Shown one piece after another: positions 1,891-23,432 of a stretch of DNA of 23,432 bases. The stretch is taken from positions 1 through 23,432 of the IMG/VR virus record IMGVR_UViG_3300031873_000725; one strand, 5' to 3'. How positions within the stretch are numbered: the first letter of the stretch is position 1; each line of letters begins with the position of its first letter. A program made the position numbers and the translations under genes. The notes below the pieces were generated by a model, which did no database searches, was not told the DNA's origin, and saw nothing but the letters and a program-made list of their open reading frames with translations. Source of the DNA: a virus.

Positions 1891-3543
1891 ATGTCAGGTA
1901 AAGTTGAAGCAACGTTGAGTGAGGTTGCCGAGTCTTGGATAAAGCTAAACGGTAAACAGTTCGATTTAACGAATTGGCCTATGCACCGCGCTTTCTACGA
2001 TTGTAGGTCCAGACGCACCTTATTTAAAACAGGACGACAAGTTGGTAAGTCCACCACCTTAGCCAGCTTCGCAATTACTGAGTGTAGTGTTATACCACAT
2101 TTCTCCGTAATGTTTATAAGTCCGACTAAGGAGCAGACAGTCCGTTTTTCTAACACACGTGTCGCCAAAACAATGAGGTACTCTCCTCATATTAGCCGCA
2201 CCTTCTTACGTTCTGGTTTAGCAGACCGTGTTTTCCATAAGCAATACCGAAATGGTTCGGAAATGCTTTTCACTTACGCCCTAGACGATGCAGACCGTCT
2301 TCGTGGTCCGTCAACGGATAGGAACATGTATGACGAGGTTCAGGACATTCTTTACGACCCGGTCATCATCGTAGGAAACGAGTGCCTTTCTCACTCTAAA
2401 TATGCTTTCGAGACATATGCTGGTACACCCAAGACAATGGAGAATACCATCCAGTACTTGTGGGAGAACAGCAGCCAGACCGAATGGGTGATGCAGTGTG
2501 ACGGTTGCAAGACGCATCAGTACGTAGACTCTGTTAAGTCCATTGGTAAAGAAGGAATAATCTGCCTTAAATGCGGGAAGTACCTAGACCCTTTCATAGG
2601 CCAGTGGGTTGATTTCAACGACTTTAAGAATTCGGCTGTTGAAGCGGAATTTCATATCAAGGGTTTTCATATCAGTTCCCCGCTTATGCCTGAGTACAAC
2701 CCTCATTCTATGGCGAAGCATGACTACGCTTTGTACGATGAGGCGCGCATTAGATGGAAACGCATCCTAACCAAATTTGAATCTTTTCCTGAGTCAAAAT
2801 TTAAGAACGAGGTATTAGGAGTTTCTGATGATGTAGGTTCGCGTATGATTTCAAAAGAAGAAGTCGAGCGCCTATGTGTTGGAAAACAACTCCAGCAATA
2901 TCCTGATACCAAACAACACACTGATATATCAACTATTGTTGCTGGTGTTGACTGGACAGGTGGGGGTACTACGGGCGTATCCAGAACAGCTCTTTGGATT
3001 TGGGGTTACCGTCCGAGGGACAAAAAGCTTGTTTGCTTATTTTATAAAACTTACCCTGGAGTTAATCCCGTAAATAATATTGAAGAAATTGCCAACGTGT
3101 GTCTGTCTTATAAGGTTGGCCTTATAGTCGGTGACGCAGGTGAGGGTCACGCACCTAATGACCTTCTACGTAAACGGCTAGGCGTACACAAGGTTACTCA
3201 GGCTCAGTATACCAGCCAAACGAAACCTGTAATTTGGAATCAAATTGACAGATACACCGTGGACAAGACCACGATTGTCGACAACTTTTTCCTTCTGTTA
3301 AAAAGGCAAGATGTCGAGCTGGGACCCATTCAGCAGATGAAGACAGCCATCGACGACATGATGAACGAGTACGAGGATATTACGGCCACTGGCCGTAAAG
3401 TCTGGACTCATGCCATGTCACTTCCCGATGACTGTCTTCACGCTGCAATATTTGGGTGGCTAGCTTTTAAGATTGTGACGAGTGATTTGCAGTTCTACTA
3501 TACGAGCGAGGATGAGAAAGCTAAGGCAAAAGCTACGGGCTAA
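1891..3543 (+). CDS. terminase large subunit (DNA-packaging ATPase/nuclease)
   Basis: 550 residues. The N-terminal ATPase shows a Walker A-type P-loop (TGRQVGKST, residues 47-55), Walker B with catalytic acid (MYDEVQD, around 146-152) and an AGTP coupling motif at 177-180. A zinc ribbon with C203, C206, C225 and C228 lies between ATPase and nuclease. The RNase H-like nuclease follows, with D354 in VAGVDWTGG, a second acid in VGDAGEG and a late acidic pair in LPDDCLHAA. The enzyme drives genome packaging into proheads and cuts the concatemer. The zinc ribbon recalls GpA-type terminases, but the P-loop and nuclease order fit the general TerL family. No small subunit is visible nearby. The start ATG lacks a Shine-Dalgarno sequence; the 28 bases upstream are pyrimidine-rich. 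The stop TAA overlaps by 4 bases the stop of the convergent polymerase gene. Confidence 0.92.
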   Translation: MSGKVEATLSEVAESWIKLNGKQFDLTNWPMHRAFYDCRSRRTLFKTGRQVGKSTTLASFAITECSVIPHFSVMFISPTKEQTVRFSNTRVAKTMRYSPHISRTFLRSGLADRVFHKQYRNGSEMLFTYALDDADRLRGPSTDRNMYDEVQDILYDPVIIVGNECLSHSKYAFETYAGTPKTMENTIQYLWENSSQTEWVMQCDGCKTHQYVDSVKSIGKEGIICLKCGKYLDPFIGQWVDFNDFKNSAVEAEFHIKGFHISSPLMPEYNPHSMAKHDYALYDEARIRWKRILTKFESFPESKFKNEVLGVSDDVGSRMISKEEVERLCVGKQLQQYPDTKQHTDISTIVAGVDWTGGGTTGVSRTALWIWGYRPRDKKLVCLFYKTYPGVNPVNNIEEIANVCLSYKVGLIVGDAGEGHAPNDLLRKRLGVHKVTQAQYTSQTKPVIWNQIDRYTVDKTTIVDNFFLLLKRQDVELGPIQQMKTAIDDMMNEYEDITATGRKVWTHAMSLPDDCLHAAIFGWLAFKIVTSDLQFYYTSEDEKAKAKATG

Positions 3544-10098: not shown

Positions 10099-10921
10099 TA
10101 GTAGCACCGTTTACGTGAGTGGCAAATTCGGGACATAGCGCATAGTAGTCACACCAGCTACATAATACTCCCGTTTGCGTGTTATCCAGTTTAGACCCGT
10201 CGATAGTTTCAGTCGCGTCCAACATGAACTGTACGACTTTGTCCATAAGGACGTCAAGTCGGGATAAATCCATATCGGCACCGTTCTCAACCTGTTTATC
10301 TTGCACCCAATGTATTGCGGGTATCATACGCATAACATGTGGATAATTAGACTTAACTAAAAAGGCATAGAAGTCTAACTGATTTGCGTAATGGGCTATG
10401 CCTTTATTCTTTCCTGTTTTGTGGTCTATTATGATGGCTGTTGGTTTATCGAGGTAGATTAAACCAACATCTATTACACCACGTAAGAGGATGGTGTTCG
10501 TTGACCCCCACTTCTCAAAGAATGGTTTCTTGTCGCCGCTAAATCCAGCAGCTATCTTCTTTTCTGTTAGAAGTTCATGACGGTCACCCTGCCCTCGAAA
10601 GGCGTTAAAGGTCGAGATGAACTTCTCCGCAGCAGGACGTGATGCTTCAAGTGACTCTATTTCACGTGTCACCAACTTATTTTCTCGTGTGACAAACTGG
10701 ATGGCCGATTCCATTTTATGCCCAAGCACCAGCATCTCTAAAAGCTTGTGTACGGCCTTACCAACACGAGAATCAAAGTTGTCAGTCAGCTTTAACGCGG
10801 CCTTGTCGGGCTTGTTGACGTATCCGTATTTAAATTTGAGAGGACATTGCTTGACTGCTTCAACTTTGCTTAGTGACCACGGAGCATGCTGCAACAAAAA
10901 TGGTGTTAGGTCTTTTGGCAT
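10028..10921 (-). CDS. Cas4/RecB-like PD-(D/E)XK nuclease with Fe-S type cysteines
   Basis: 297 residues. An N-terminal Cys (C26, in KQCPLKF) and a C-terminal C254-x2-C257-x5-C263 (CSWCDYYALC) give the four-Cys arrangement used by Cas4, AddB and related nucleases to hold an Fe-S cluster. Catalytic features are H58 (GKAVHKL), D151 (RGVIDVG), D166-x-K168 (IIIDHKTGK) and Q181 (YANQLDFYAFL), in the normal RecB-family order. Such enzymes process DNA ends in replication or recombination. No cas1 or cas2 gene is in the window, so a role in phage DNA metabolism is more likely than CRISPR adaptation. The ATG at 10921 has AAAAGGTG just upstream. The gene follows a terminator at 10940-10977 and overlaps the start of the primase gene by about 70 bases. 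Confidence 0.85.
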   Translation of the reverse strand: MPKDLTPFLLQHAPWSLSKVEAVKQCPLKFKYGYVNKPDKAALKLTDNFDSRVGKAVHKLLEMLVLGHKMESAIQFVTRENKLVTREIESLEASRPAAEKFISTFNAFRGQGDRHELLTEKKIAAGFSGDKKPFFEKWGSTNTILLRGVIDVGLIYLDKPTAIIIDHKTGKNKGIAHYANQLDFYAFLVKSNYPHVMRMIPAIHWVQDKQVENGADMDLSRLDVLMDKVVQFMLDATETIDGSKLDNTQTGVLCSWCDYYALCPEFATHVNGATNDQEQEKVLGGVECIGPIKGLNT

Positions 10922-12148: not shown

Positions 12149-13189
12149 ATGGATAATTTCTTTGAGAGTCGCACATTTAGGAGTTATTACGACGATGTGG
12201 GTAAGCATAAGGTACTCACACCAGCTAGAGAATATGAACTTCTTTTACGCTACAAAAGCTGTCCTAAATGTGCCAAGCGCTTACCCCACCTTACAAAAGT
12301 TAATAACTGCCCTGATTGTGGTGCGTCTACCCCAAAACGTATAACAAGTAAAGCCATCACTTGTACCGAATGTAGCGCCCGTTTTGATGCTTTTGCGCCA
12401 CCAGTTTACTGCGTATATTGCGGGTCTCCCAGAGACTCTGTGGCACGAGAAGAACTTATAGTTTCCAACTTACGCTTTGTAGTTACATCGGCTAAAAAGC
12501 TCGCCAAATCGGCAGAAGTCATACAGAAATTAATTTCTGCAGGCAATGTTGGGTTGCTAGTGGCGCTAGATAAATTTGATATGGCCCGCGACACACGGTT
12601 CTTAACGTACGCGTCCTGGTGGATACGCAAAGAAATGTTGGACGAGTTACACGCAAGTGGGATTGTTCACGTACCATCGCACAAACAAAAAGCAGTTAAG
12701 AAAAGTCAAAAACTAGGGTCGTATGAGTGTATCCATTGTGGTGTGCGAACAGATAACCCATTACGCACATTACAACCTAAATGTGTTAAGCTAGGAAGAA
12801 AGCGAAGACCCCACGATTTTAACGCCGTTAACGCCGAAGAGATTACGACGATGTCTTCTATTGTGCCACTAGAAGAAGCGATGAACCGACCAGGGCCAGA
12901 TGAGAACCTTGAAGACCTTACGATTAGTAACGATAACGCCATTCTACTCCGTAAGGTGCTCAATGACATGCCCATACGAGCTCGTGACCGGTTCATCCTT
13001 CTCCAGTATTACAATATTGCTCAGGACGAGCGAAAGACTGAACCGAAAACTCTTCCTCAGCTAGCAGCTGTAACAGGTGTGACCGTAGAACGGGTACGAC
13101 AAGTTAAGCTGGTAGTTTTGAAAAATTTACGGCGTCAATTAGTGGACAAAAGTCCGGTGGGGGTAGACGTGGTGGTAGTGAGCGTTTAG
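12149..13189 (+). CDS. sigma-70 family RNA polymerase sigma factor with inserted zinc modules
   Basis: 346 residues. A region 1.2-like segment (residues 9-36) is followed by two CxxC-CxxC zinc ribbons (C38/C41/C54/C57 and C72/C75/C88/C91). Region 2 runs from about 97 to 168, with DKFDMARDTRFLTYASWWIR closely matching the 2.3-2.4 core of primary sigma factors. A region 3 start (HVPSHKQK, 174-181) follows, then a third Cys group (C194, C197, C212). Region 4 ends the protein, with a helix-turn-helix TLPQLAAVTGVTVERVRQVK at 301-320. It should direct RNA polymerase, host or phage, to phage promoters. Zinc ribbons at these positions are not part of normal sigma factors. It has a perfect Shine-Dalgarno site, stands alone on its strand, and its stop overlaps that of the convergent ParB-like gene by 4 bases. 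Confidence 0.92.
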   Translation: MDNFFESRTFRSYYDDVGKHKVLTPAREYELLLRYKSCPKCAKRLPHLTKVNNCPDCGASTPKRITSKAITCTECSARFDAFAPPVYCVYCGSPRDSVAREELIVSNLRFVVTSAKKLAKSAEVIQKLISAGNVGLLVALDKFDMARDTRFLTYASWWIRKEMLDELHASGIVHVPSHKQKAVKKSQKLGSYECIHCGVRTDNPLRTLQPKCVKLGRKRRPHDFNAVNAEEITTMSSIVPLEEAMNRPGPDENLEDLTISNDNAILLRKVLNDMPIRARDRFILLQYYNIAQDERKTEPKTLPQLAAVTGVTVERVRQVKLVVLKNLRRQLVDKSPVGVDVVVVSV

Positions 13190-14196
13190 AACGTGTCGCG
13201 AAGACCGCTCAGGCGCTCCATACCAATGATGATGCCTTTGTAGTAATTCACACGGTCTTTGGTGTTGGCGGACTCAACCAACTCGTTGGCCTCTAGGAAG
13301 TACGCTCGGGCTTCTTTCTGAGAGACCAGTTTGAGAGACAGGTTTGCGTAGTCTTTGAGCTTGGGCTTGTTCTTGGTCGGACGCCCTGCCTTCTTCTTGT
13401 CTTTCTTCGTTCCGGCTGCCTTTGCTTTCTCAGCCTTTTTGTCCAAGTAGATGACGATAGCGTTCTCGGTATCTTCTGGTGTCCAGTCGTTGTCCACCGT
13501 GGCTTCAAAGACTTTGTCGTAGAACTTGATATCTTCTTCGTTGAAGACACGCAGCAGCGAGCGCAGGTGCGCAAACTTCAATTTTTCAGAGCGGGCATAT
13601 TTGATGGCTTCTGGCGGCAGCTTCAGAATGTTGAGGTGCTGAGAAACAAAAGCCTCACTCTTGCTACAAGACGCTGCGATGTTCTTGTTCTTCTTACCCG
13701 AGTCGACGAGATACTGGAATGACTCTGCAATCTCGATTGGGTTGTGTCCTTCCCGCGCGAGGTTAGTTAGCATCGAAGTCAGGTAAGCGTCTACGTCGTT
13801 GTCGTCATCCGTGAAAGTGACGAGTGCGTCTTTGACGCCTGCTTCAAGCATAGCGGCGTAACGGCGCCGACCATCAACGAGCAGAACTTTGCTGGGGTCT
13901 GTGGGGTCGATACGCACGAGGAGAGCGACCTTCTGGCCCACAGTTATGATGGACTGCACGAGACCCTTAATATCCCCAACCTTGTCTCGGTTATAGCGGT
14001 CAGGAAACGTGATGTCCTTCAAAGGAATACGCAGATTCTTTGGAATTTCGACTTTGGTTACCGACTTCTTTTCGGTCGAAGTCTTCGCGGTTTTCTTTCC
14101 TTTCTTCTCAGTCACAGGTTCTTTTTCTTCTACTACGTCGAGTGTCTCGTCGTTATCGTCGGGCGCAACCAGGTCTTGAGGGTCTGTTTCAAACAT
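13186..14196 (-). CDS. ParB/Srx-fold protein with helix-turn-helix
   Basis: 336 residues. After a Lys/Glu-rich leader (1-50) comes a ParB N-terminal domain, with IPLKDITFPDRYNR, DGRRRYAAMLEAG (the counterpart of the GERRxRA box) and a NLAREGHNPIEIAESF segment. A helix-turn-helix (KNIAASCSKSEAFVSQHL) follows. A Lys-rich linker and a helical C-terminal part finish the protein. ParB proteins bind centromere-like DNA and many are CTP switches; phage ParB-like proteins also include nucleases and regulators. No ParA gene is visible, so plasmid-like partition is not shown. A Shine-Dalgarno AAGGA lies 8 bases before the ATG. It is the last gene of the second - strand block and overlaps the sigma factor stop by 4 bases. 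I saw no obvious parS-like palindrome nearby. Confidence 0.82.
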   Translation of the reverse strand: MFETDPQDLVAPDDNDETLDVVEEKEPVTEKKGKKTAKTSTEKKSVTKVEIPKNLRIPLKDITFPDRYNRDKVGDIKGLVQSIITVGQKVALLVRIDPTDPSKVLLVDGRRRYAAMLEAGVKDALVTFTDDDNDVDAYLTSMLTNLAREGHNPIEIAESFQYLVDSGKKNKNIAASCSKSEAFVSQHLNILKLPPEAIKYARSEKLKFAHLRSLLRVFNEEDIKFYDKVFEATVDNDWTPEDTENAIVIYLDKKAEKAKAAGTKKDKKKAGRPTKNKPKLKDYANLSLKLVSQKEARAYFLEANELVESANTKDRVNYYKGIIIGMERLSGLRDTF

Positions 14197-14225
14197 GTTC
14201 TGTTCCTTCTGGGTGTTTCTGGTTT

Positions 14226-14453
14226 TTATTCTGACAGCGCCGTTAGCTCTGCTAGAACTTCTGACTTATCAATCTGATGCATGACAAGCCTCTCAGGAGG
14301 AGTTCCTTCGAGGATGTCTCCGAGTAAATGGAACAGCTCGGTAGCGCAAAGGAGGAGACTCTTTTCTGAGTTGTACGCTACCATGTACAGTGCGCGTATA
14401 GTCCGCAGCGTCTTGTCTGGGTCAATCTGCTTGCGTCTAACGCCACTAGTCAT
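14226..14453 (-). CDS. small unknown protein, 75 residues
   Basis: The start ATG overlaps the TGA of the upstream 57-residue gene (ATGA), which indicates translational coupling, and GGAG lies 8 bases upstream. The protein has a basic N-terminus and a helical middle (residues 15-48, with SLLLCATELFHLLGDIL) but no recognisable domain and no convincing membrane segment. It lies 29 bases before the ParB-like gene on the same strand. Function unknown. Confidence 0.65.
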   Translation of the reverse strand: MTSGVRRKQIDPDKTLRTIRALYMVAYNSEKSLLLCATELFHLLGDILEGTPPERLVMHQIDKSEVLAELTALSE

Positions 14454-14623
14454 TCGAATGGCTCCGTGCCGTGCTCAGGGCACTTTAACAGTCCGCCGAC
14501 AGTATCAAGGTCTTCAACTATGCGGTGACACCAAGGGCAGCGTTGTTGCACAACGACGGTCTCAGCAGTCTCAGCAGTCTCAGCCGTCTTTTCGACCTTC
14601 TCCTCTACTCCAAGCTTTTCCAT
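14450..14623 (-). CDS. 57-residue zinc-ribbon protein
   Basis: The ATG at 14621-14623 follows the stop of the 138-residue gene by one base and has GGAGG seven bases upstream. The TGA at 14450-14452 overlaps the next start as ATGA. An acidic N-terminal half with three AET repeats precedes CPWC at residues 29-32 and CPEH at 48-51, a CxxC/CxxH pair that fits a small zinc ribbon. The tight spacing on both sides argues strongly that it is a real gene. The target is unknown; small zinc ribbons of this kind often bind protein or nucleic acid. Confidence 0.75.
   Translation of the reverse strand: MEKLGVEEKVEKTAETAETAETVVVQQRCPWCHRIVEDLDTVGGLLKCPEHGTEPFE
14559..14585. repeat. three tandem 9-base repeats
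   Basis: The unit [A/G]GTCTCAGC occurs three times in a row on the + strand (first copy with G). On the - strand it encodes Ala-Glu-Thr three times near the start of the 57-residue zinc-ribbon protein. The unit is a whole number of codons, so copy number could change without a frameshift. Confidence 0.8.
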
Positions 14624-14624
14624 G

Positions 14625-15041
14625 TCACGCCTCCGCAGAAGCCCTGCTGGCTTCCATCTCGGCCTTTGTGCGGCGTTTCTTCTTGGGGATTTCGCCTTCG
14701 GTTTCGGTTGTGGTCGCAGGCTTTGCCTCGTGCTTAATGCGGAACATGAGGTCTTCCACCAGGTACTTCACACGAGCCTTGCAGCCCCTGTTGCGCTTGC
14801 CATCGAGCTCGCACAAGTCGTCAAGTGCTTCAATGTCATACTCACCATCATCGTTCTTTACGAGGATGAGTACGTCCGGGAGAAGTTTGCTGTCGTAATT
14901 ACGGATGCTTTCCGTGAGCTCTTTCAGAGCCGATGTCTTTTCTTTGTCGCCATTTACGATTTCGCTGGCACGGTCGAGGCTAACGCTCGTCTCACTCTTG
15001 CGCCCACAGCGCCCGCACTTGGTCTCAATCTTTACGTCCAT
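14625..15041 (-). CDS. unknown 138-residue protein with CxxC motif and basic tail
   Basis: A CxxC pair (C9 and C12, in CGRCGRK) opens the protein, and two more Cys lie around residues 77-87 (LCELDGKRNRGCKAR), which could complete a zinc site. The middle is acidic and helical. The C-terminal 30 residues are rich in Lys, Arg, Ala and Thr (KKKRRTKAEME), which suggests nucleic-acid contact. The ATG at 15041 has GGAGGT eight bases upstream, placed in the last codons of the endolysin gene. The next gene starts one base after its stop. It is part of a small-gene run between endolysin and ParB-like protein. No family recognised. Confidence 0.7.
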   Translation of the reverse strand: MDVKIETKCGRCGRKSETSVSLDRASEIVNGDKEKTSALKELTESIRNYDSKLLPDVLILVKNDDGEYDIEALDDLCELDGKRNRGCKARVKYLVEDLMFRIKHEAKPATTTETEGEIPKKKRRTKAEMEASRASAEA

Positions 15042-15047
15042 GTCGAC

Positions 15048-16250
15048 TTACCTCCAGTTGCTACCGTCTTTTTCGTATTGCTGGCTTGCTTCCAACAATG
15101 CTTTCGTTGTTTTGGGTCCGAGGATACCGTCGACCTTAAGTTCGGCCTCCGGAGCAAGATCCATCTTTTTGTGGTTCCACGCAGCTTGGAACATGGACAC
15201 CGCCTGTTTAAACGCCCAGTCGTAGATACTGGCAGGGCCACTTGTAAATCCCAAGTTATCAAGGTGAGGTTTTGCTTCTACCACGGAAAGGACGTGTTTA
15301 CCGAAGTCGGGTTCATCGTCCGTGTGCGTCGGAATTTTTACGCCGTATTCCGGGCTCTCAGCGTTGTCTTCCTCAATTTTCGAGTGGTCCTCAAGCTTCT
15401 CCGGCTTATTCAGGGGAGAATTTTCAAAACTCTGAATGATGGCAAGCTGGTCAACCGGGAACATACCCTCGTTAAACGCGCCAGAGTTACATTCAGCTGA
15501 GGGCCACATCGGACCCATGTCTGACTTGCCTTCACGCCAGTCAGAATGCTGAGACATACGCAAAGATGAGATGCGTTCGCCGAGAGCCATCTTTACCAGT
15601 CTTTTGAGTTTGATGTTAGTTGTAATTTGGTCGAGGGTAAAAGGTTGCAGGTACTCAGCGCCTTTGTATGGGGGAGTAATTGATGTAGGCGGTAGTTCGT
15701 TAAGCAAATTAAGTGGAACCTCACCCGCCCAGTACGCCCAATTTCCCTTATCGTTCTTAAACAAACGTCCTGCATTGACAGTTTCGACGCTAATACTGTC
15801 TCTGTTTTTTCGGGGCTCGTGCCAAGCTCCATTAGACAGTGATACCAGGTAGAGAGGGTCTCCGTGGTGGTCTGAAATGAAATGCGTTGACGCTCCGTTA
15901 AATTTGCCATTGGCATTCTTCCTAGAACTAAACCAGTTCACAGTTGACCACGCGTTGATGCCCGCTGTGAAGTGGTCCACCCACCAGAGGTCCTGAACTG
16001 TGCCTAGTGCGAGTGGGTAGCACTGCTGGGTTGGAAAAAACTTCTCGAGTCCTTTGGCTTGGATGCGCTGGTGTGTATAGAGGAACAGGTCGTTGAGGGC
16101 CTTTTGAGCCTCGGTATCCTTGAGGACTTTCCCACTTCCCACTTTTTCCCACGCAGCCAGGAAACGCTGCCTTGCTGCGTCTCCAGTTGCCTTCACCAGC
16201 GCCCAAAAGTCTTTTTGGGGCAAGCTGTTATAGTTCACGAGCATATTCAT
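15048..16250 (-). CDS. endolysin: N-acetylmuramoyl-L-alanine amidase with peptidoglycan-binding domain
   Basis: 400 residues from the ATG at 16248-16250, which overlaps the TGA of the upstream nuclease gene (ATGA) and follows GAGGG; the longer frame to 16304 would overlap that gene by about 58 bases. A central amidase-2 type domain shows VDHFTAG, then STHFISDHHGDP, AWHEP, ISVETVNAG and finally QHSDWREGKSDMGP, which supply the zinc His ligands and the late acid in family order. A C-terminal peptidoglycan-binding domain has VDGILGPKTTKALLEA. The N-terminal 80 residues are of unknown role. It should cut the amide bond between muramic acid and the stem peptide at lysis. No signal peptide is seen, so release needs a holin, and none is recognisable nearby. 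Unusually it sits among DNA-metabolism genes. Confidence 0.85.
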   Translation of the reverse strand: MNMLVNYNSLPQKDFWALVKATGDAARQRFLAAWEKVGSGKVLKDTEAQKALNDLFLYTHQRIQAKGLEKFFPTQQCYPLALGTVQDLWWVDHFTAGINAWSTVNWFSSRKNANGKFNGASTHFISDHHGDPLYLVSLSNGAWHEPRKNRDSISVETVNAGRLFKNDKGNWAYWAGEVPLNLLNELPPTSITPPYKGAEYLQPFTLDQITTNIKLKRLVKMALGERISSLRMSQHSDWREGKSDMGPMWPSAECNSGAFNEGMFPVDQLAIIQSFENSPLNKPEKLEDHSKIEEDNAESPEYGVKIPTHTDDEPDFGKHVLSVVEAKPHLDNLGFTSGPASIYDWAFKQAVSMFQAAWNHKKMDLAPEAELKVDGILGPKTTKALLEASQQYEKDGSNWR

Positions 16251-17116
16251 CTTTTCCCTCGGCACCTTCCGTAGTAACCACAAAACTTTGGGGTACACGC
16301 CCACGATGTGGGGTCACACCTGGGAAACACACCCTTCTTGATAAAGTCCGCAATCTCCTCAACGTCTTCTGTTAACAGCTTGATATCGAAAGCGTCCCTT
16401 ACCGACCTCTCCTGCTCGTACTTTACGCCAGTCTTACTGTCAATTAAGAAGTCGATTCTAACGCGACTGGTGCCTTCTGCAAGAGCATAAAACGTTAACT
16501 GAGGCGTAAAGCGCACTTTTTGTTCTGGCCACTTCTTAGCAGTGGTTTTCAAATCTGAAACAACTTCCACCATGCGAGGGTTGTCTGGGTCATTTTCTAG
16601 TGACATATCCGTATCTTGCACGCTGTCTACGAGGTCGATGACACCGCGCACCGGCACAACTCCAACTTTGATAGCGAAAGTTTTTTCCGCGCTGATAGGT
16701 TTGATACGAGGTACAGCGTGGCGATAGTACGCGGCATATCCGTTGACGGCCGCATCTTTGACTACGCCTGGAGAAAATCCGTCCCAGTTTTCAATAAAAG
16801 CTGACTCGGCGTCGAAACAGTTGGCGACGCTTTCAGCTCCTTTTTTGAAGTCCAAAGGCTTACCGGTCTCAATCATGCTCTTGTGGATTATTTCAGCCCC
16901 CTTGTGAATCGCAGTGCCTTTGACCATTGAAACCCCTGGTGGGTCCACCAACTCCTGTACGTAGCGATATTCATATTGGCGCGGGCAACGCTGGTACATA
17001 CCGACCTGGGAGGGCGACATGACTCCCTTGGGGAGGCCCATATCCATAAAGTTTTCAGGATAGTTAAACTTTTTGTCGGACGAACGCTCTTCTTTGACAT
17101 TGTCTTCTTCAGACAT
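16247..17116 (-). CDS. second Cas4/RecB-like PD-(D/E)XK nuclease
   Basis: 289 residues. C44 (YQRCPRQYEYRY) and a C-terminal group C267, C274, C279, C285 fit a four-Cys Fe-S site with one spare Cys. Catalytic positions are H71 (GTAIHKGAE), D161 (RGVIDLVD), D188-x-K190 (VSDLKTT) and Q206 (TPQLTFYALA). The order matches the nuclease at 10028-10921, but the sequences differ widely, so this is a distant paralogue rather than a recent copy. It probably processes DNA ends. AGGAG lies 7 bases before the ATG, and its TGA overlaps the endolysin start. It sits downstream of the SNF2 helicase on the same strand, which suggests a helicase-nuclease pair, although no contact is shown. Confidence 0.82.
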   Translation of the reverse strand: MSEEDNVKEERSSDKKFNYPENFMDMGLPKGVMSPSQVGMYQRCPRQYEYRYVQELVDPPGVSMVKGTAIHKGAEIIHKSMIETGKPLDFKKGAESVANCFDAESAFIENWDGFSPGVVKDAAVNGYAAYYRHAVPRIKPISAEKTFAIKVGVVPVRGVIDLVDSVQDTDMSLENDPDNPRMVEVVSDLKTTAKKWPEQKVRFTPQLTFYALAEGTSRVRIDFLIDSKTGVKYEQERSVRDAFDIKLLTEDVEEIADFIKKGVFPRCDPTSWACTPKFCGYYGRCRGKR

Positions 17117-17149
17117 GTGGTCTCCTGGGGCGAGTTTACGCCGTAAGGG

Positions 17150-17524
17150 TTAGCGAATTTTGTTCAGAATCTCTTGCATGAACTCAGCCGGGAACTCTTT
17201 GGACTCATCAGAAGCAAGTTGCGCGATTTGCTGGCTGGCCTTCATAACGTCGTCAAAGTTGTTAGCAGCGGGGGCTTCTTCTACGGGCTCATTGTGGTTT
17301 TCTAACCGTACCTCAGGAGGCAACCAGGTCGCTGGAATACGAGGGTTAGTGGGTTGTTGCGCTGTTTGGGTTGCTTGGGCTGCTTTGGTTATGGTCTCGA
17401 TAGAGACTTCAGTCAGCGTAACGCAATCGTCATCGGTGAAATGAATGTTTTCTGCTTGTATTCCGCAACCCAAAGCTTTGCTCAGAAGTTGAGCGAGTTC
17501 TTGAAGGTCGAAGGTGATATTCAT
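17150..17524 (-). CDS. unknown 124-residue protein
   Basis: The ATG at 17524 has AAAGGAG five bases upstream, so the gene is well supported. The N-terminal 50 residues look like a small alpha/beta fold, followed by a Gln/Thr/Pro-rich linker (residues 48-85) and an acidic helical end. There is no Cys cluster, catalytic motif or membrane segment. It lies between the SNF2 helicase (15 bases upstream) and the second nuclease (33 bases downstream), and may be an accessory to either. No family recognised. Confidence 0.65.
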   Translation of the reverse strand: MNITFDLQELAQLLSKALGCGIQAENIHFTDDDCVTLTEVSIETITKAAQATQTAQQPTNPRIPATWLPPEVRLENHNEPVEEAPAANNFDDVMKASQQIAQLASDESKEFPAEFMQEILNKIR

Positions 17525-17539
17525 TTGTGCTCCTTTAAC

Positions 17540-19615
17540 TTACTTTAAACCTTTGGTGCTAGTGAGGGCAACAGTTTTTGGTTGTGTTATGAGTCTATCC
17601 ATAGAAGAAGAATATTTACAGAGCGTTGTCCACGGTTCTATCCCTTTAACCGCACATGTCTCGTAGTTAGAACAGAGGAGGCAATCCATCTTGGTTGTTA
17701 GCATCTTACCAATATTCAACCTATTAGCCAAAGCTATCAGTTGCTGCTGTTCGACGGTATGCGCACCTACCAAGCGATAGACCACTGTTTTGGACGTCTG
17801 TCCGATACGGAAGTTACGGGCTCTTGATTGCAGCCACGCATCGGGCGACCACGGGCGACTGTAGTAAATTGAGTATTGCGCTGCTGTGAGGGTGATAGCG
17901 ATACCAGTGTTTACCTGCCCTAAATAAACACGGGTACCCTTATCATTTTGGAAGAGATTCTCATAGTGTTTTATGTTCTTGGTGTTGGAGCCATCAACAC
18001 GTACGTATCCGTATTTGTTCTTCTTTAAGAGTTCTTCGATGTGGTTTAGCTCAGCTGTGAAGTGCGCCCAGATGATAACTTTACGGTCTTCTGTATCCAG
18101 GATGTCTTCGAGCAAATCCTTTAGTGCTTCTAGCTTTGGGTTTTGAGCGTAAAGTAGGATTGTAGGAGGAGGATTTTTACCTAAAGAATCCTTCACGCAT
18201 TCTTTATCTCCTGGCGTTGTACCTGCGTCGAAACAAGCTTGCAATGATGGGCACTTGTCACACGGAGCGCTCTCGTCTTCTTTGGGCATATAGTAGAACC
18301 CACTACAAATCTGTAAAAGTTTACCCAAGCGTGTAGAGCCCTGAGACAGGTCAATCTTCGCCTCTTCACCTCCCAAGGAAAATTCTTTGACCGCCTTATT
18401 ATAATCTTTGGTCTGTCCTGGGCTTAAGTAGTACATAACATTTTGGTCACGCTGCTCAGGAAGTTGAACGCAGTCGAGTAACTTTCGTTCGCTAGATACC
18501 GAGTTAACCCTCGTATTGATAATGTGCATGTTCTTGTAGCCAGTTACTACGTGCTCATTCCACGGTGAATGTTCGCAGAATTTCTTTACGAAAGTGAACC
18601 ACTGCTCCGGCATAATCGCAGGATGAAGAATCTTTAGTTGCGTGTAGAAGTCTCGCGGGTCACCAATTGTGGGTGTACCAGACAGCATGTACCGGCGTGT
18701 GGCCTTTGCTGATAGCGCCGTTATGACTTTTGTTCTTTGACTCTTTATACTTTTGACTCTGTGCGCTTCGTCGAGAATGAGAACCTTGAAGTCCAGACAG
18801 GAAAGAAAAGGAGGTACAGGACCGACAATCTTGTCTACCTCCACGTCTATCTGTGCGGGTGTGAGGTTTCCGGCGTAATAGGCCGCAAGGTAGTGAATTT
18901 GTTGCTTATCTTCTGGGAGGGTGGCTACTTTGTCCACCACGTGCATGTGCCAGGGCGTACTACCCACGCGTTCTTTTTTCTTTAGCGCAGCAGCTTTTGC
19001 GCACAGAACAGGTACACCATAAAGACGAGCAGTGTCATAAGAGACAATAACAATATCTTTGTTTGCAGCTTCAAGGATTTTCTTTTCTTTTTGTTTTGCT
19101 GTTCCAGTAATTGTGATAGTCGAAAGCGTTCCGGAGGAGTGTATGTCAGTTTCGCGGACCCAGTTATCGACTGCGATAAGAGGACAAATAACAACTGCTT
19201 TCTCTCGTAAATGTTGCAGGGCATCAAGAACGACTTTTGTCTTTCCTGTCCCCATTTCCCATCTAAGATACCAGCGGTAATACGTAAGTAGTTCGGCCGT
19301 CCCGGTAAGCTGATGCTCATAGCTATTAAATTTCCCCCCCGTAGGGTGCTCACGGACGAAAGCATCCCAGTATTCCAATGGTTTTCCATTGTCTAATGCC
19401 TTCTGTTCTTCCTCGTCAGAGAGCGCACCTTCACAGATTTCTTTGATGTCACGTATGACGTTATCCCGGAAGGGAGGGTAACCAGGAAAAATCCAAGCTC
19501 GTTGTTGGGTTGCGTACTGACTTCCAAACACCCTTTCCCAAGAATCATGAGGTCCTCCTTGAACATAAAACGCAGGTGTTCCACCAATTTTGATGAACTT
19601 CACTTTAGATTCCAC
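17540..19615 (-). CDS. SNF2-family helicase/ATPase with two matching Cys modules
   Basis: 691 residues from a GTG start with AAAGGA about 10 bases upstream. SNF2 motifs appear in order: Walker A EMGTGKTK (120-127), DEAH at 282-285, SGTP (312-315), then the second RecA lobe with IIWAHFTAE (514-522), VDGS (540-543) and a motif VI region SRARNFRIGQT (597-607), close to the RAHRIGQ of the family. SNF2 proteins translocate on double-stranded DNA, remodelling or displacing bound proteins. Two Cys groups are unusual: C452/C455/C461/C473 between the lobes and C645/C648/C654/C666 near the C-terminus, both with spacing C-x2-C-x5-C-x11-C. The gene starts 32 bases from the divergent portal-like gene and leads the second - strand block. 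Confidence 0.88.
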   Translation of the reverse strand: MESKVKFIKIGGTPAFYVQGGPHDSWERVFGSQYATQQRAWIFPGYPPFRDNVIRDIKEICEGALSDEEEQKALDNGKPLEYWDAFVREHPTGGKFNSYEHQLTGTAELLTYYRWYLRWEMGTGKTKVVLDALQHLREKAVVICPLIAVDNWVRETDIHSSGTLSTITITGTAKQKEKKILEAANKDIVIVSYDTARLYGVPVLCAKAAALKKKERVGSTPWHMHVVDKVATLPEDKQQIHYLAAYYAGNLTPAQIDVEVDKIVGPVPPFLSCLDFKVLILDEAHRVKSIKSQRTKVITALSAKATRRYMLSGTPTIGDPRDFYTQLKILHPAIMPEQWFTFVKKFCEHSPWNEHVVTGYKNMHIINTRVNSVSSERKLLDCVQLPEQRDQNVMYYLSPGQTKDYNKAVKEFSLGGEEAKIDLSQGSTRLGKLLQICSGFYYMPKEDESAPCDKCPSLQACFDAGTTPGDKECVKDSLGKNPPPTILLYAQNPKLEALKDLLEDILDTEDRKVIIWAHFTAELNHIEELLKKNKYGYVRVDGSNTKNIKHYENLFQNDKGTRVYLGQVNTGIAITLTAAQYSIYYSRPWSPDAWLQSRARNFRIGQTSKTVVYRLVGAHTVEQQQLIALANRLNIGKMLTTKMDCLLCSNYETCAVKGIEPWTTLCKYSSSMDRLITQPKTVALTSTKGLK

Positions 19616-19647
19616 GATATACTATCCTTTCAACTAGCGGAGGCAAA

Positions 19648-21363
19648 ATGACGACTGACACCATGAGATTGTTTGACCCCTACCACGGGGGTATGGATGG
19701 GACTCATTCGAATCCTTATTACCAGTACTCGCAGCTCTATACGCCCAAGCGGCTGAAGGAACTGTTTGTCTGGTGTGAGTACCTCTTTTACCAAAGTCCG
19801 CACATTTTTGCGGCTCTCCGTAAATTCGGTGAATATCCAATCACCAAGATTACTTACGAGACCGTAAACGAACATCTCAAGCAGCGGCATAAAGATTTAC
19901 TAGAGAAAACACTCCGGGTAAGAGAGTTCCTTATTAAAGCGTCTCTGGACAAATATGTCTATGGGAATAGCTTCGTCTCTATGTACCAGCCTTTCGTCCG
20001 CTACTTAAAGTGCACGAAATGCAGCGCTCTTACGAACATCAAAAACACGGCGTATACCTTTGATGTTACCAACCTTAAGTTCACGTATTCGTGCCCTGCT
20101 TGTAAGGGAAAAGTAACAGCTTCTGAAGACCAAATTGAAGACAGAAAACTTCTGTTGGCTAAGGGAATCAACTTTATTAGGTGGGACGCCAAAGACCTGG
20201 ACATTGACCATAATCCGCTCACAGGAGAATCTGAATACTATTACAAGATTCCTCAGCAGGTTGTGAGCAGAGTTAACGCGGGCCACAAGACCCTTATAGA
20301 CACAATGCCTATTGGCTTCTTAAAAGCCATTAAGGCGCGTAAGCCGTTTAAGTTTGCACGCGATGCCATTTTTCACATGAAAGTTGGTGCTCCAGCGGGT
20401 ATCAATCCTCAGTGGGGTCTTCCTCCTATCTTGGCGGCGTTGGAGCGTTTTCACTTTACGCAGATTCTACGAAAGGCTAACGAGGCAATTGCGCTCGACT
20501 ATCTGGTACCATTCCGTGTTTTGCACCCAACTCAGTCATCTGGAGTCGCTGACCCCGTACAACAAATTAGTCTCTCAAAGTGGAAAGACGAGCTCGACCT
20601 CAACCTTCGATTACACCGTAAAGACCCACTGCATATTATGTACGCCCCCATCCCGGTGGGAATGGTTCAAATTGGTGGTCAAGGACGCGCGCTGCTCACC
20701 TTGGGAGAAATACAAGAGGCCGAGAAGAGTATCGTTGCCACCTTGGGAATTCCCATGGAGTTCCTCTACGGAGGACTCACTGGGCGTGGCATGGAAGCGA
20801 CTCTTAGAATGATTGAGAACCAACTCGCGACCCATATCGCGGACATCGTCGACCTTATGCAATGGATTGACGACAAGTGTTCTGAGTTCTTGGGTTGGGA
20901 AAAGATTACGGTAGGTCTGACACCTTTCCGTATGATTGATGATTTTGAAAAGCAACAGCTCATGTACAACGTGTGGCAGACAGGAAAGCAGACGGGCTCT
21001 CAAGTTCTGTCGGACACCACGATGTGCGAAATATTTGAGATTGACCCTCTCCGTGAAGAGACACGTATCAAAGAAGAGACACTACGCGGCGTTAGAATCA
21101 GTAACGCTATCCAGATTGAAATGCAGAAACAGCAAAACAACCTGGCGCAGCAGACGCAACAAGAAGCTTTGCAAGGTCCGTCCAATTATAACCAGCAACA
21201 GGTTATATCGAATGCGGACCAAATTGTTAACGAGCTGTCTCAAATGGAATACGGCGCCAAGAAGAGCCGGTTACACCAGTTGCAAGTTGAAGACTTTGTG
21301 TTGTACGCTGTTGTAGTCCAACGTATGGAACTACAAAACAAGCAGCAATCACAAGGAATGTAG
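19648..21363 (+). CDS. portal-like head protein with zinc ribbon
   Basis: 571 residues. GGAGG four bases before the ATG fixes the start. A segment LDKYVYGNSFVSM near residue 100 matches the YGN region common in portal proteins. A CxxC-CxxC ribbon (CTKC near 121 and CPAC near 150) follows. Later parts include GINPQWGLPPILAALERF, the long-helix-like region ending at DLMQWIDDKCSEFLGW, and a Gln-rich helical C-terminus, all as expected for the stem, wing and barrel of a portal. The portal is the dodecameric ring at the head vertex through which the terminase moves DNA. The terminase gene is 16 kb away on the same strand, not adjacent as in many phages. The assignment rests on length, local motifs and context; a profile search would settle it. 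Confidence 0.72.
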   Translation: MTTDTMRLFDPYHGGMDGTHSNPYYQYSQLYTPKRLKELFVWCEYLFYQSPHIFAALRKFGEYPITKITYETVNEHLKQRHKDLLEKTLRVREFLIKASLDKYVYGNSFVSMYQPFVRYLKCTKCSALTNIKNTAYTFDVTNLKFTYSCPACKGKVTASEDQIEDRKLLLAKGINFIRWDAKDLDIDHNPLTGESEYYYKIPQQVVSRVNAGHKTLIDTMPIGFLKAIKARKPFKFARDAIFHMKVGAPAGINPQWGLPPILAALERFHFTQILRKANEAIALDYLVPFRVLHPTQSSGVADPVQQISLSKWKDELDLNLRLHRKDPLHIMYAPIPVGMVQIGGQGRALLTLGEIQEAEKSIVATLGIPMEFLYGGLTGRGMEATLRMIENQLATHIADIVDLMQWIDDKCSEFLGWEKITVGLTPFRMIDDFEKQQLMYNVWQTGKQTGSQVLSDTTMCEIFEIDPLREETRIKEETLRGVRISNAIQIEMQKQQNNLAQQTQQEALQGPSNYNQQQVISNADQIVNELSQMEYGAKKSRLHQLQVEDFVLYAVVVQRMELQNKQQSQGM

Positions 21364-21365
21364 AT

Positions 21366-21896
21366 ATGGATGATTTCCGCTCCGTCGTACAAACTGCACA
21401 AAACTTTGAATTTACGAACGTCTTTGGCGACAATAAGGGAGGGAACCTTGTCGGCAAGAAGACCGAGCCGGAGCACGTTAGTGAGCCATTAAGGGTTTGC
21501 TATTTTTCCAAGGTGTACGTTATCTGGAGACCATACAACAGCTGCATACAATGTTCTGCAGCTCTTAATGCTGGCGAAGCAGTTCAGCCAGATGATTCCG
21601 CGTATACCTGTCCTCACACGAATAACCGTGAATACGAAGAGGTCATTAATCATTGTCTATCGGGTAAAGCGTTGCTACAAAAGCAGGACTTCATTGACCT
21701 TAAGGACGGCACGCGAATTGCGCATGTTATGTGGCTGATTGCCGACCCCAAACACATTGAAGAGCTTAAGAAGAAAAAAATAGCTGCAGAAAAAGACAAA
21801 GTCTATCCGCCTAACCCAGCAAAGGTATTTGCGGAAGAAGACAAAAAAATAGAAGCAGAGCCTGCGGTTAGCACAGGCTCTGCTGAAGACCGCTGA
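21366..21896 (+). CDS. unknown 176-residue Cys protein after the portal-like gene
   Basis: The ATG lies 2 bases after the portal-like stop and AAGGA sits 8 bases upstream, so the two are co-transcribed. A Cys group with CIQC near residues 60-63, a further Cys about 20 residues later in TCPHT, then a His-Cys pair, could bind zinc. A region with LKDGTRIAHVMWLIADPKH follows, then a Lys/Glu-rich tail with two A7 runs in the gene. Position suggests a head or portal accessory protein. No family recognised. A strong hairpin lies in the last codons (21855-21883). Confidence 0.65.
   Translation: MDDFRSVVQTAQNFEFTNVFGDNKGGNLVGKKTEPEHVSEPLRVCYFSKVYVIWRPYNSCIQCSAALNAGEAVQPDDSAYTCPHTNNREYEEVINHCLSGKALLQKQDFIDLKDGTRIAHVMWLIADPKHIEELKKKKIAAEKDKVYPPNPAKVFAEEDKKIEAEPAVSTGSAEDR
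21843..21883 (-). terminator. hairpin with T-tract, terminator-like on the - strand
   Basis: Bases 21855-21883 form a perfect 10-bp stem (GCAGAGCCTG with CAGGCTCTGC) with a 9-base loop. Read on the - strand the stem is followed by TTCTA and then seven T (A7 at 21843-21849). No - strand gene is upstream of it in the window, so it could stop antisense transcription, end a short antisense RNA, or act on the + strand mRNA. The + strand lacks a T-tract directly after it. Confidence 0.45.
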
Positions 21897-22045
21897 CAGC
21901 TGACAGAATTTTATAGGAGGAATAGAAGCGCTATTATAGCCAAATTCCTCTAACCTTTCCCCGCCCCATAACATTCTCTTGAGACACATTCAGGTATCTC
22001 ATAGACTTATAACAACGTTTTTCTCTATTTTCGAAAAGGAACTAG
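21897..22045 (+). promoter_or_regulatory. leader region of the RNA polymerase beta gene with candidate promoter
   Basis: These 149 bases hold no gene. A candidate + strand promoter is TTGAGA (21979-21984), a 17-base spacer, then TAGACT (22002-22007), each half matching 4 of 6 sigma-70 positions. A weak hairpin GAGGAAT/ATTCCTC flanks 21917-21950, and an orphan Shine-Dalgarno-like AGGAGG at 21915-21920 has no start codon after it. On the - strand TATAAT occurs at 21933-21938. The gene start itself has AAGGA at 22036-22040. Confidence 0.35.
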
Positions 22046-23432
22046 ATGACCACTCCGAACGATGTCCAGCCTGTCTTGGTTGATGCCGCCACAAAGCGTG
22101 ACCACATCCGGCAGAAGGTCATGGAGGGGATTATGGAATCCTTCCCCATCAAGTCGCGGAGTAAGACTATTGAGATTTCAGACTTGAGTTTCACGAAGAA
22201 GGACTACTCACCTTCTGAGCAGAAGACGGCCATCTTAGAAGGCAATTCTTTGTTCGAGCCTGTACAAGGTACAATACGCGTTCGGGATAATGCCTCGGGA
22301 GAAATTACGGACGAAGCCAAGAAATTTACGCTAGCCAAAATTCCATGGTTCACTCCTCGGCATACGCTCATCGTTGGTGGTAACGAGTACTCTGTTTCGA
22401 GTATGGTGCGTCCAAAGCCAGGTGTGTACGCACGTAAGCGCTCCAATGGAATTCTTGAAGCTAACTTCAATATGCAAGGTGCCGCTAACTTTAACGTCAC
22501 CATGGACCCTGAAAAGGGCGAGATGCAACTTGAGTACGGTGCGTCCAAGATTCCTCTTTACCCCATCTTAACTCGCGCAGGAGTTACGCACGAACAGATT
22601 GTGGCAAAGTGGGGCGACGCTCTTGCTGAGAAGAATCGGCAAATGGCGCCAAAGAATATCACAGGCGTTGTGGACCGTCTCTATAACAAAGTTGTTCCTA
22701 CTTATGGCCGGGAAGCTTTAAAGCTAACAACGCCAGAAGCAAAGATTCAAGAAGTCTTTAGTCGTTACGCTAAAGCCTCCATGAACCCTGACGTAAACAA
22801 AGCAACGCTAGGGCACCCATATGAGACGGTGACGCCACATGCTATCTTAGATGCGTCACACAAAGTATTAAAAATATTCAAGAATAACGACGAGGTTGAT
22901 GACCGAGACAGTTTGGACTTCAAGTCTCTGTATATGATTGATGACTTCTTTAAGGAGCGTATCAAGCTTGATGCTCGGGATATTACCCGTAAAGTAGCAA
23001 TTAAAATAGAGGCCAAGAAAGACCTTAAGAGTGCTATTGCCTCTGCGCCGTTTACGCCAGGACTTCTGAAGTTTATTAACACCTCTCAGCTCGTAGCAGT
23101 GCCCACGCAGACGAACCCCATGGAGCTTATTGATTCCTCCATGCGCGTCACGTCTCTAGGCGAAGGCGGCATCAGCTCGGAGCGCGCCATTCCTATGGAA
23201 GCCCGTATGGTTCATCCTACGCAGATTGGTGCGCTTGACCCTATGCGTACTCCTGAGTCTTTCCGTGCTGGCGTGGATGTTCGTGCTGCTCTTGCTATGC
23301 ACAAAGATTCAAAGGGGAATATTTACGTTCCTCTTGTGAATGTGCGTAAGGGAAAGAAAACTGAGTTTGTTCGCTCTGGAATAATACAAACCAGCACTGT
23401 GGCGTTTCCTCAACAGAAGCTAGAAGGTCAGG
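22046..23432 (+). CDS. DNA-directed RNA polymerase beta subunit homologue, 5' part
   Basis: 462 codons are visible and the frame is still open at the window end. ATG has AAGGA five bases upstream. The N-terminal part aligns by eye with bacterial beta: LFEPVQGT, then TPRHTLIVGGNEYSVSS and RPKPGVY match the TFVINGTERV and SPGVF region. Residues 345-385 match the rifampicin and fork-loop region (TSQL...TNP...MRVTSLGEGGISSER), followed by MVHPTQIG and RTPES, counterparts of VHPTHYG and ETPEG. S347 corresponds to E. coli S509, so about 160 residues of N-terminal lobe material are missing. This is a multisubunit-type polymerase subunit, not a T7-type enzyme. Whether it is full length or split as in phiKZ-like phages cannot be seen. 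It follows the portal-like and 176-residue genes on the same strand, suggesting late expression. Confidence 0.9.
   Translation, partial: MTTPNDVQPVLVDAATKRDHIRQKVMEGIMESFPIKSRSKTIEISDLSFTKKDYSPSEQKTAILEGNSLFEPVQGTIRVRDNASGEITDEAKKFTLAKIPWFTPRHTLIVGGNEYSVSSMVRPKPGVYARKRSNGILEANFNMQGAANFNVTMDPEKGEMQLEYGASKIPLYPILTRAGVTHEQIVAKWGDALAEKNRQMAPKNITGVVDRLYNKVVPTYGREALKLTTPEAKIQEVFSRYAKASMNPDVNKATLGHPYETVTPHAILDASHKVLKIFKNNDEVDDRDSLDFKSLYMIDDFFKERIKLDARDITRKVAIKIEAKKDLKSAIASAPFTPGLLKFINTSQLVAVPTQTNPMELIDSSMRVTSLGEGGISSERAIPMEARMVHPTQIGALDPMRTPESFRAGVDVRAALAMHKDSKGNIYVPLVNVRKGKKTEFVRSGIIQTSTVAFPQQKLEGQ

Follow-up and report, generated by a model that had tools for sequence, protein, structure and literature searches.

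A phage family that probably brings its own sigma-guided RNA polymerase into the host cell

The DNA analysed here (the window, i.e., the whole stretch of 23,432 nucleotides) is a piece of a phage from a large, mostly uncultured family with genomes of about 165–198 kb, and infection by this phage probably delivers a ready-made transcription apparatus, guided by sigma, to the host cell. In the usual view, a phage either supplies a polymerase itself or uses a sigma factor to divert that of the host; the widespread family described below seems to combine the two strategies in a single enzyme. In the proposed model, the phage's own bacterial-type RNA polymerase (RNAP) would depend on sigma. Its core would consist of two chains, a fusion of beta with the N-terminal part of beta' (beta::beta'N, starting at 22046) and the remainder of beta' (beta'C), and two phage-made sigmas would serve this single core. 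The shorter one, sigma-V, would be made alongside the structural proteins and packaged with the core, which on entry it would point to early promoters. Sigma-A, encoded in the window (Table 1) and made after infection, could then shift the core, whether synthesised in the cell or brought in by the particle, to later promoters. That a single phage core works with two phage sigmas, early genes being served by the packaged sigma and later genes by that of the window, is considered likely. The fuller picture is considered fairly likely: a particle carrying a complete sigma-dependent holoenzyme with a fused, alpha-less two-chain core, and an injected early sigma followed by a second phage sigma. 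If true, this would be the first case in which a multisubunit polymerase of a virus is shown to work with genuine sigma-70-family factors, and the sigma cascade would be entirely viral.

Table 1. Features of the window and candidate promoter sequences
Feature	Position	Strand	Remarks
Terminase large subunit (TerL), GpA-type ATPase	1891..3543	+	PF05876; indicates kinship with Arash
Sigma-A (window-type sigma)	12149..13189	+	346 aa; Pfam, PHROG and PDB matches
Portal protein gene	19648..21363	+	Immediately precedes RNAP; same order in Arash (gp204-gp206)
Small ORF between portal and RNAP	21366..21896	+	Position of Arash gp205
Candidate promoter element CTTATAAC	22006..22013	+	Upstream of beta; weak, putative
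RNAP beta::beta' N-terminal fusion chain, first 462 aa	22046..23432	+	PF04565, phrog_24349, PDB; chain cut by the window end
Candidate phage promoter sequence GGTATAAG			Named beside TAAAATA

The beta reading frame (22046–23431, open at the window end) matches PF04565 (1.5e-7, Pfam), phrog_24349 (5.2e-15) and bacterial beta chains in the PDB (down to 2.5e-15), which bears out the bacterial-type beta that the sequence-only reading had placed from 22046 to the window end. The record is an IMG/VR fragment; beta' lies beyond it, and the fusion is read from relatives, with contigs up to 94% identical extending past the window edge. In relatives whose beta is 78–94% identical to that of the window, which itself ends before the junction, one chain combines beta with the N-terminal half of beta', including the active-site motif, and the remaining ~600 aa of beta' (beta'C) form a separate chain after the fusion. 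Past position 23432, where the sequence-only reading had proposed to look for the rest of beta and a beta' gene, the frame of these relatives stays open (1452–1454 aa) and beta' is present. The clamp helices of beta' and the flap-tip helix of beta, the docking sites of sigma, are retained in all members with the catalytic NAD(F/Y)DGD. At Q513, F514, D516, H526 and S531, positions that bear on rifampicin sensitivity, the phage beta carries other residues. No alpha subunit was found in 30 records. A −1 frameshift (A_AAA_AAG) linking beta::beta'N to the next gene was considered and rejected: this sequence lacks conservation, and inteins account for the long frames. The adjacency of the portal and RNAP genes on one strand suggests that RNAP is expressed together with the head genes.

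Sigma-A matches Sigma70_r2 (8.8e-12, Pfam), phrog_351 'RNA polymerase sigma factor' (2.9e-26) and SigB, RpoS and SigA in the PDB (up to 3.5e-16, spanning regions 2–4), and the sigma-70 protein noticed earlier at this locus is thus a real member of the family. An r1.2-like start (merely 0.06, Pfam) is followed by the defining elements of the sigma-70 family, region 2 with the aromatic WW melting dyad and a region 4 helix-turn-helix (HTH; Sigma70_r4 at 3e-4, under the Pfam cut-off). Cys-rich, zinc-ribbon-like inserts occupy aa 38–91 and about 194–212. Region 1.1 was absent in the sequence comparison and a Cys-rich insert stands in place of region 3, so sigma-A does not belong to the primary (group 1) sigmas, and the earlier label 'primary-type' was too strong. 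The AlphaFold model of this protein reached a pLDDT of 62.8, and the claims are made without it.

Cultured relatives include Salmonella phage Arash (OQ632216, 'Arashvirus') and Vibrio phages D69 (OZ195729), D148 (OZ196545) and D181 (OZ196140); 102 IMG/VR contigs hold a relative. The cultured phages share with the window lineage the fused beta::beta'N, the separate beta'C, both sigma types, the portal–small gene–RNAP order and related TerL, portal and major capsid protein (MCP). Identity to Arash is 28% for the window TerL (3e-61), 31% for the window portal (1e-83) and 43% for the MCP of G001, a relative with a beta 81% identical to that of the window. The cultured phages differ in their beta, only about 30–36% identical to that of the window lineage, and in a sigma-A without zinc-ribbon inserts; a LigD-like gene between the RNAP chains is found in the window lineage only. 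Each of the 22 family records that reach 140 kb or more, Arash and D69 included, holds one beta, one beta'C, a sigma region 2 protein and a Gp10-type sigma. The association is seen from both ends: sigma is present in 17/17 large records found via beta, and beta in 10/10 records first found via the window-type sigma. Sigma-A precedes beta by 10.9–15.8 kb in 23 of 29 records, and the two are on the same strand in 28 of the 29. A single short metagenomic contig with beta cut at its end might raise the suspicion of an artefact, be it host DNA, a chimera or remnants of decaying genes, but this is extremely improbable: the gene order is repeated in many independent contigs, in the three sequenced Vibrio phages and in Arash, the frames are open for more than 1450 aa with the catalytic motif, and the window beta shares only ~25–36% identity with any beta of bacteria or of phage isolates. 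Contamination and chimerism were ruled out by the relatives.

The family could be compared with several known systems. Multisubunit RNAP-encoding Caudovirales (mReC) likewise have an RNAP that readily aligns with bacterial beta/beta'; they are characterized by a TerL in PF03237/VOG01069 and an MCP in PF07068 (Weinheimer and Aylward 2020, PMC7481178), and their description makes no mention of sigma (PMC7481178). Membership in mReC was rejected, as neither MCP nor TerL fits: the window TerL belongs to PF05876 (6.7e-14 vs just 0.019 for PF03237, Pfam), in Arash both TerL matches are weak, and the Arash MCP is Phage_capsid-like, matching PF05065 (0.0036) and phrog_2522 and giving no hit to PF07068, the MCP of the window phage lying outside the window. 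RNAPs of the phiKZ/AR9 type are also multisubunit phage enzymes with split beta' and no alpha, one of them virion-packaged, and provide host-independent transcription (PMC7598289, PMC9209446, PMC13282480); they comprise two separate RNAPs with no recognisable sigma, whereas the window family has one core and two sigma-70-family proteins. The earlier statement that phiKZ-like enzymes work without bacterial-type sigmas holds for recognisable sigma sequence and less so for structure, by which AR9 gp226 is recognisable as a sigma-like subunit (PMC9209446). Phages with phiKZ-type (group 1) RNAPs are defined by the lack of a sigma factor and a family B DNA polymerase (PMC7824862); here sigma is present, the DNA polymerase in the window is of family A (1.9e-69, Pfam), and instead of two paralogous RNAP sets one beta and one beta'C are found in 29/30 records. 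The RNAP of Yersinia phage YerA41 resembles that of the window family in that beta' is divided between an N and a C chain, but its beta is unfused and no sigma region 2 match was found. Sigmas of the T4 gp55/SPO1 type are phage-encoded as well but act on the host core, whereas in the window family a phage core is always present. In reviews, RNAP-encoding jumbo phages are without recognisable sigma and sigma-encoding phages redirect the host (PMC7598289, PMC7824862). The family provides a natural core reduced to two chains and lacking alpha, as well as a test of sigma–core co-evolution outside cells, and the cultured isolate Arash makes the model testable at once.

The virion proteome of Arash holds beta::beta'N (Gp206, the most detected protein, 128 unique peptides), beta'C (Gp216, 40) and the short sigma (Gp10, 24), and the window-type sigma Gp196 is missing from the virion table (PMC10585845). 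Per 100 aa, the published data give 8.4, 6.6 and 10.3 peptides for Gp206, Gp216 and Gp10, matching capsid (9.8) and portal (5.5) and not background proteins (0.2–1.4); these values come from one phage with a beta 36% identical, and for some entries spectrum counts diverge from unique peptides. The Arash authors listed the RNAP and sigma proteins, leaving the fusion, the promoters and the absence of the second sigma from the virion undescribed, and noted that abundant infection proteins may adhere to particles (PMC10585845). A virion-packaged polymerase, left open by the sequence-only reading, is supported by the core and one sigma in the Arash particle; that sigma is of the short Gp10 type with a diverged region 2 and a short region 4, and the window sigma is of the type absent there. 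The gene for sigma-V lies outside the window; in G001 it is found between gp8-like and gp12/13-like genes, and this locus is syntenic with that of Arash. By orthology and synteny, the Arash virion data would carry over to the window lineage. The sigmas would be injected into the host.

Features of the sigma–core interface are consistent with binding of the sigmas to the phage core. In the alignment, region 2.2 of sigma-A has lost Q406/E407, with Ala at the E407 position in every phage sigma-A aligned, and phage beta' has V/I/L/A, never R, at R275 where this position was extracted. Both sides of the sigma2.2/clamp-helix contact, as aligned, depart from bacteria together; structure models were poor (flap plus beta'N, 774 aa, pLDDT 34.6, unusable). 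Alternatively, the phage sigma(s) could redirect the host core, with the phage RNAP using another factor or none. The host core is the target of every phage sigma-70-family factor that has been characterised (PMC7598289), phiKZ-type RNAPs use a subunit without recognisable sigma sequence, and a D69 gene annotated as Srd anti-sigma factor suggests some handling of the host sigma. Nevertheless, such a division of labour is unlikely in view of the two-way co-occurrence of sigma and RNAP, the packaging of sigma with the core in Arash, the retention of both docking elements and the paired changes at Q406/E407 and R275. The promoters also argue against it: the host sigma-70 boxes TATAAT and TTGACA show no enrichment upstream of Arash and D69 genes. 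The sequence-only reading had proposed either that the phage polymerase has kept the use of sigma or that two programmes run, one on the host core and one on the phage core. The former is favoured by the core and two sigmas in all the large records; two programmes are retained, both on the same phage core, whereas a host-core programme is less likely because host-type boxes are not enriched.

In Arash and D69, the early-strand motif G[GT]TATAAG precedes 11/82 and 15/77 early-strand genes (0.14 and 0.29 expected from shuffles) and was not found on the late strand. A weaker late-strand motif, TAAAATA, precedes 3/42 and 8/35 late-strand genes (0.25 and 0.67 expected), i.e., few sites; it was obtained from k-mer counts, the EM search for the Arash late motif not exceeding shuffles at every width. 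Late promoters of T4 are −10-like without a visible −35, and TAAAATA resembles them in this respect. Each motif could be assigned to one of the two sigmas. With the same core and sigmas, the roles might be reversed, the window-type sigma reading early and the short one late promoters, or the packaged sigma might only keep the injected core competent. The window-type sigma retains the WW dyad and HTH that characterise sigmas able to open promoters, the packaged one being diverged in region 2, and in D69 the window-type gene is on the early strand. These arrangements are nonetheless quite improbable: since the window-type sigma is absent from Arash virions, it would be available to the virion polymerase for the first transcripts only if host RNAP produced it, and no excess of host-type promoters is seen. 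Under the preferred assignment, the packaged sigma would serve the early promoters and sigma-A the later ones.

The early motif, as TGnTATAAG, resembles an extended −10 element, which host RNAP could in principle read. The Arash/D69 motifs were not found in the window lineage (G010, G001), where the promoter search gave a late-strand motif only, TATACTT (G010), absent from the window. Upstream of beta, at a spot similar to that of the candidate element in Table 1, diverged relatives carry a CTTATA-type element.

In this 23,432-base IMG/VR virus fragment, the open reading frame at 12149-13189 encodes a sigma-70 family protein (Sigma70_r2, 8.8e-12; r4, 3e-4), which matches phrog_351 (2.9e-26) and PDB sigma factors (up to 3.5e-16). 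The sequence-only reading had named it a primary-type sigma-70; the family assignment stands, and the primary type is withdrawn, since region 1.1 is missing and a Cys-rich insert takes the place of region 3. A second Cys-rich insert lies between regions 1.2 and 2, the site of the sigma-70 non-conserved region. Zinc-ribbon-like CxxC inserts of the window sigma (aa 38-91 and about 194-212) vary in position between lineages (window versus the related G031/G032 sigma); the window-type sigmas of Salmonella phage Arash and Vibrio phage D69 are without them.

The reading frame that opens at 22046 encodes the first part of a bacterial-type RNA polymerase (RNAP) beta chain (PF04565, 1.5e-7; PDB beta chains, 2.5e-15), so the bacterial-like beta subunit proposed from there to the window end is borne out. 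The window itself covers the sigma and one third of one RNAP chain, the remainder being known from relatives; contigs with beta 79-94% identical to that of the window extend beyond its edge. In related contigs L004 and L005 this frame comprises 1452-1454 aa, and beta is directly joined to the N-terminal half of beta' (beta::beta'N), with the active-site motif NAD(F/Y)DGD or GADYDGD. Next in the 3' direction come a gene whose product combines LigD Prim-Pol and 3'-phosphoesterase domains and then a 601-aa chain, beta' starting upstream of the bridge helix. The LigD-like gene is found between the RNAP chains in the window lineage and is absent from this position in Arash and D69. Some relatives have longer frames (1790-2840 aa) with insertions at the active-site motif and the GDK(M/L) motif, which look like inteins. 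Large intein-like insertions follow NADYDGD in L003, L039, L040 and L042, several per gene in some cases, and GDKL in L041 and L042; a G026 frame with such insertions reaches 2842 aa. In six records (G016-G019, G022, G023) RNAP consists of three chains: beta with the first part of beta', the remaining beta'N, and beta'C. The alpha subunit (PF01000) was found in 0 of 30 records by a search positive in 13 of 14 control genomes; the beta-beta'N fusion may substitute for the scaffold role of alpha.

A profile scan revealed relatives of the beta chain in 102 IMG/VR contigs. Co-occurrence was assessed in 30 large records, 22 of them at least 140 kb long. All 22 contain one beta (PF00562), one beta'C (PF04998), a sigma region 2 protein and a shorter sigma of the Arash Gp10 type (sigma-V), although these counts are not independent events, since the records are related; beta identity among them falls as low as about 35%. 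Gaps occur exclusively in fragments shorter than 140 kb: the Gp10-type sigma is missing from G016, G018, G023 and G024 (100-134 kb), and RNAP from G006, a shorter fragment with about 5 kb between its sigma and the end of the contig. Beta was present in 10/10 further records first picked up via the window-type sigma (sigma-A). The sigma gene precedes beta by 10.9-15.8 kb in 23 of 29 records and shares its strand in 28 of 29. Yersinia phage YerA41 likewise has a split beta', but no sigma region 2 match was found in it.

Reviews report no sigma from phiKZ-type phages (PMC7824862), treat phages with an RNAP and phages with a sigma as unrelated groups (PMC7598289), and describe phage RNAPs as being without sigma homologues (PMC13282480). 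AR9 gp226 is a distant structural relative of sigma (PMC9209446). The mReC paper (PMC7481178) does not mention sigma, and the mReC capsid and terminase families are unlike those of the window family. Among the open-access journal articles searched, none was found to describe this combination of a phage RNAP with phage sigmas.

Sigma contact sites were read from an alignment of the phage core to E. coli RpoB/RpoC. The core retains the beta flap-tip helix region (the sigma region 4 site) and the beta' clamp helices (the region 2 site); none of the aligned phage cores has the beta' zinc ribbon (residues 70-88). The WW melting dyad of sigma region 2.3 is invariant among the aligned phage sigmas. 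Q406-E407 of region 2.2 and beta' R275 are sigma-core interface residues in E. coli. The former is replaced by X-A in every aligned member, and the latter by V, I, L or A in all cases extracted; at the sequence level, the loss of both is compatible with sigma having adapted to the phage core. Structure predictions were of too low confidence to be useful.

By tblastn, the fused chain has counterparts at 36% identity over 93-98% in Arash and in Vibrio phages D69, D181 and D148. For each of the Arash terminase, portal, capsid, DNA polymerase, sigma and RNAP, a counterpart exists in the window or in close relatives of it. Arash carries two sigma genes: gp196, which is positioned like the window sigma, and gp10, which is shorter and lies among the structural genes. 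In its virion proteome (PMC10585845), Gp206 (beta::beta'N) is the most detected protein (128 unique peptides), accompanied by Gp216 (beta'C, 40) and Gp10 (24); Gp196 is missing from the table. Computed from that table, unique peptides per 100 aa amount to 8.4, 6.6 and 10.3 for Gp206, Gp216 and Gp10, compared with 9.8 for capsid, 5.5 for portal and 0.2-1.4 for background-looking enzymes; spectrum counts are less reliable, because some proteins have two unique peptides yet hundreds of spectra. The Arash paper (PMC10585845) lists the RNAP subunits and names early transcription among the possibilities.

In Arash, the minus strand bears the early half of the genome and the plus strand the structural genes; there are 30 copies of GGTATAAG on the former and a single copy on the latter (longer form, GGTATAAGTAA..TGTAA). 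GTTATAAGTAATAT occupies the equivalent setting in D69. Motifs were counted within 70 nt upstream of genes and compared with dinucleotide shuffles; the figures are numbers of motifs rather than of mapped starts. On the early strand of Arash and D69, G[GT]TATAAG was observed 11 and 15 times versus 0.14 and 0.29 in shuffles, and on the late strand not once within this distance; TAAAATA on the late strand was observed 3 and 8 times versus 0.25 and 0.67. TATAAT and TTGACA were not enriched upstream of genes in either phage, and full sigma-70-type promoters were no more frequent than in shuffles. On the late strand of G010, a record of the window lineage, TATACTT occurs 6 times versus 0.13 expected, one copy lying 30 nt before the beta gene.

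In the favoured model, one phage core is used with two phage sigmas. Sigma-V would be a late product made together with the structural proteins, since its gene sits among theirs. Packaged and injected with the core, sigma-V would read early promoters, and sigma-A, not packaged in Arash, would replace sigma-V at a later stage. The two stages that phiKZ-like phages serve with two polymerases would be covered in the window family by a single polymerase with two sigmas.

SNF2-type proteins are encoded beside the portal gene of the window and next to beta'C in Arash, where the product is abundant in the virion (38 unique peptides). A possible parallel is RapA, a bacterial SNF2 ATPase bound to RNAP. 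One D69 gene bears the annotation Srd anti-sigma factor; its target may be host sigma-70.

Coordinates of further features in the window and its relatives
Feature	Sequence	Position	Strand	Remarks
Family A DNA polymerase	window	3540-6662	-	N-terminal weak uracil-DNA-glycosylase-like match, E 0.054
Primase-like protein, 1175 aa	window	6580-10107	-	CHC2 zinc finger, Toprim, possible AAA ATPase region
Two PD-(D/E)XK nucleases	window	10028-10921, 16247-17116	both -	same Pfam family PF12705, within 7 kb
ParB-like partition protein	window	13186-14196	-	3' end shares 4 bases with sigma gene end
SNF2-type helicase	window	17540-19615	-	
Candidate element CTTATAAC	window	22006-22013		position comparable to TATACTT before G010 beta gene
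LigD primase-polymerase/3'-phosphoesterase	L005	14350-15801		equivalents in window lineage
SNF2-type ATPase gp217	Arash (L018)	31094-32512		
Srd gene	D69 (L178)	23371-23910
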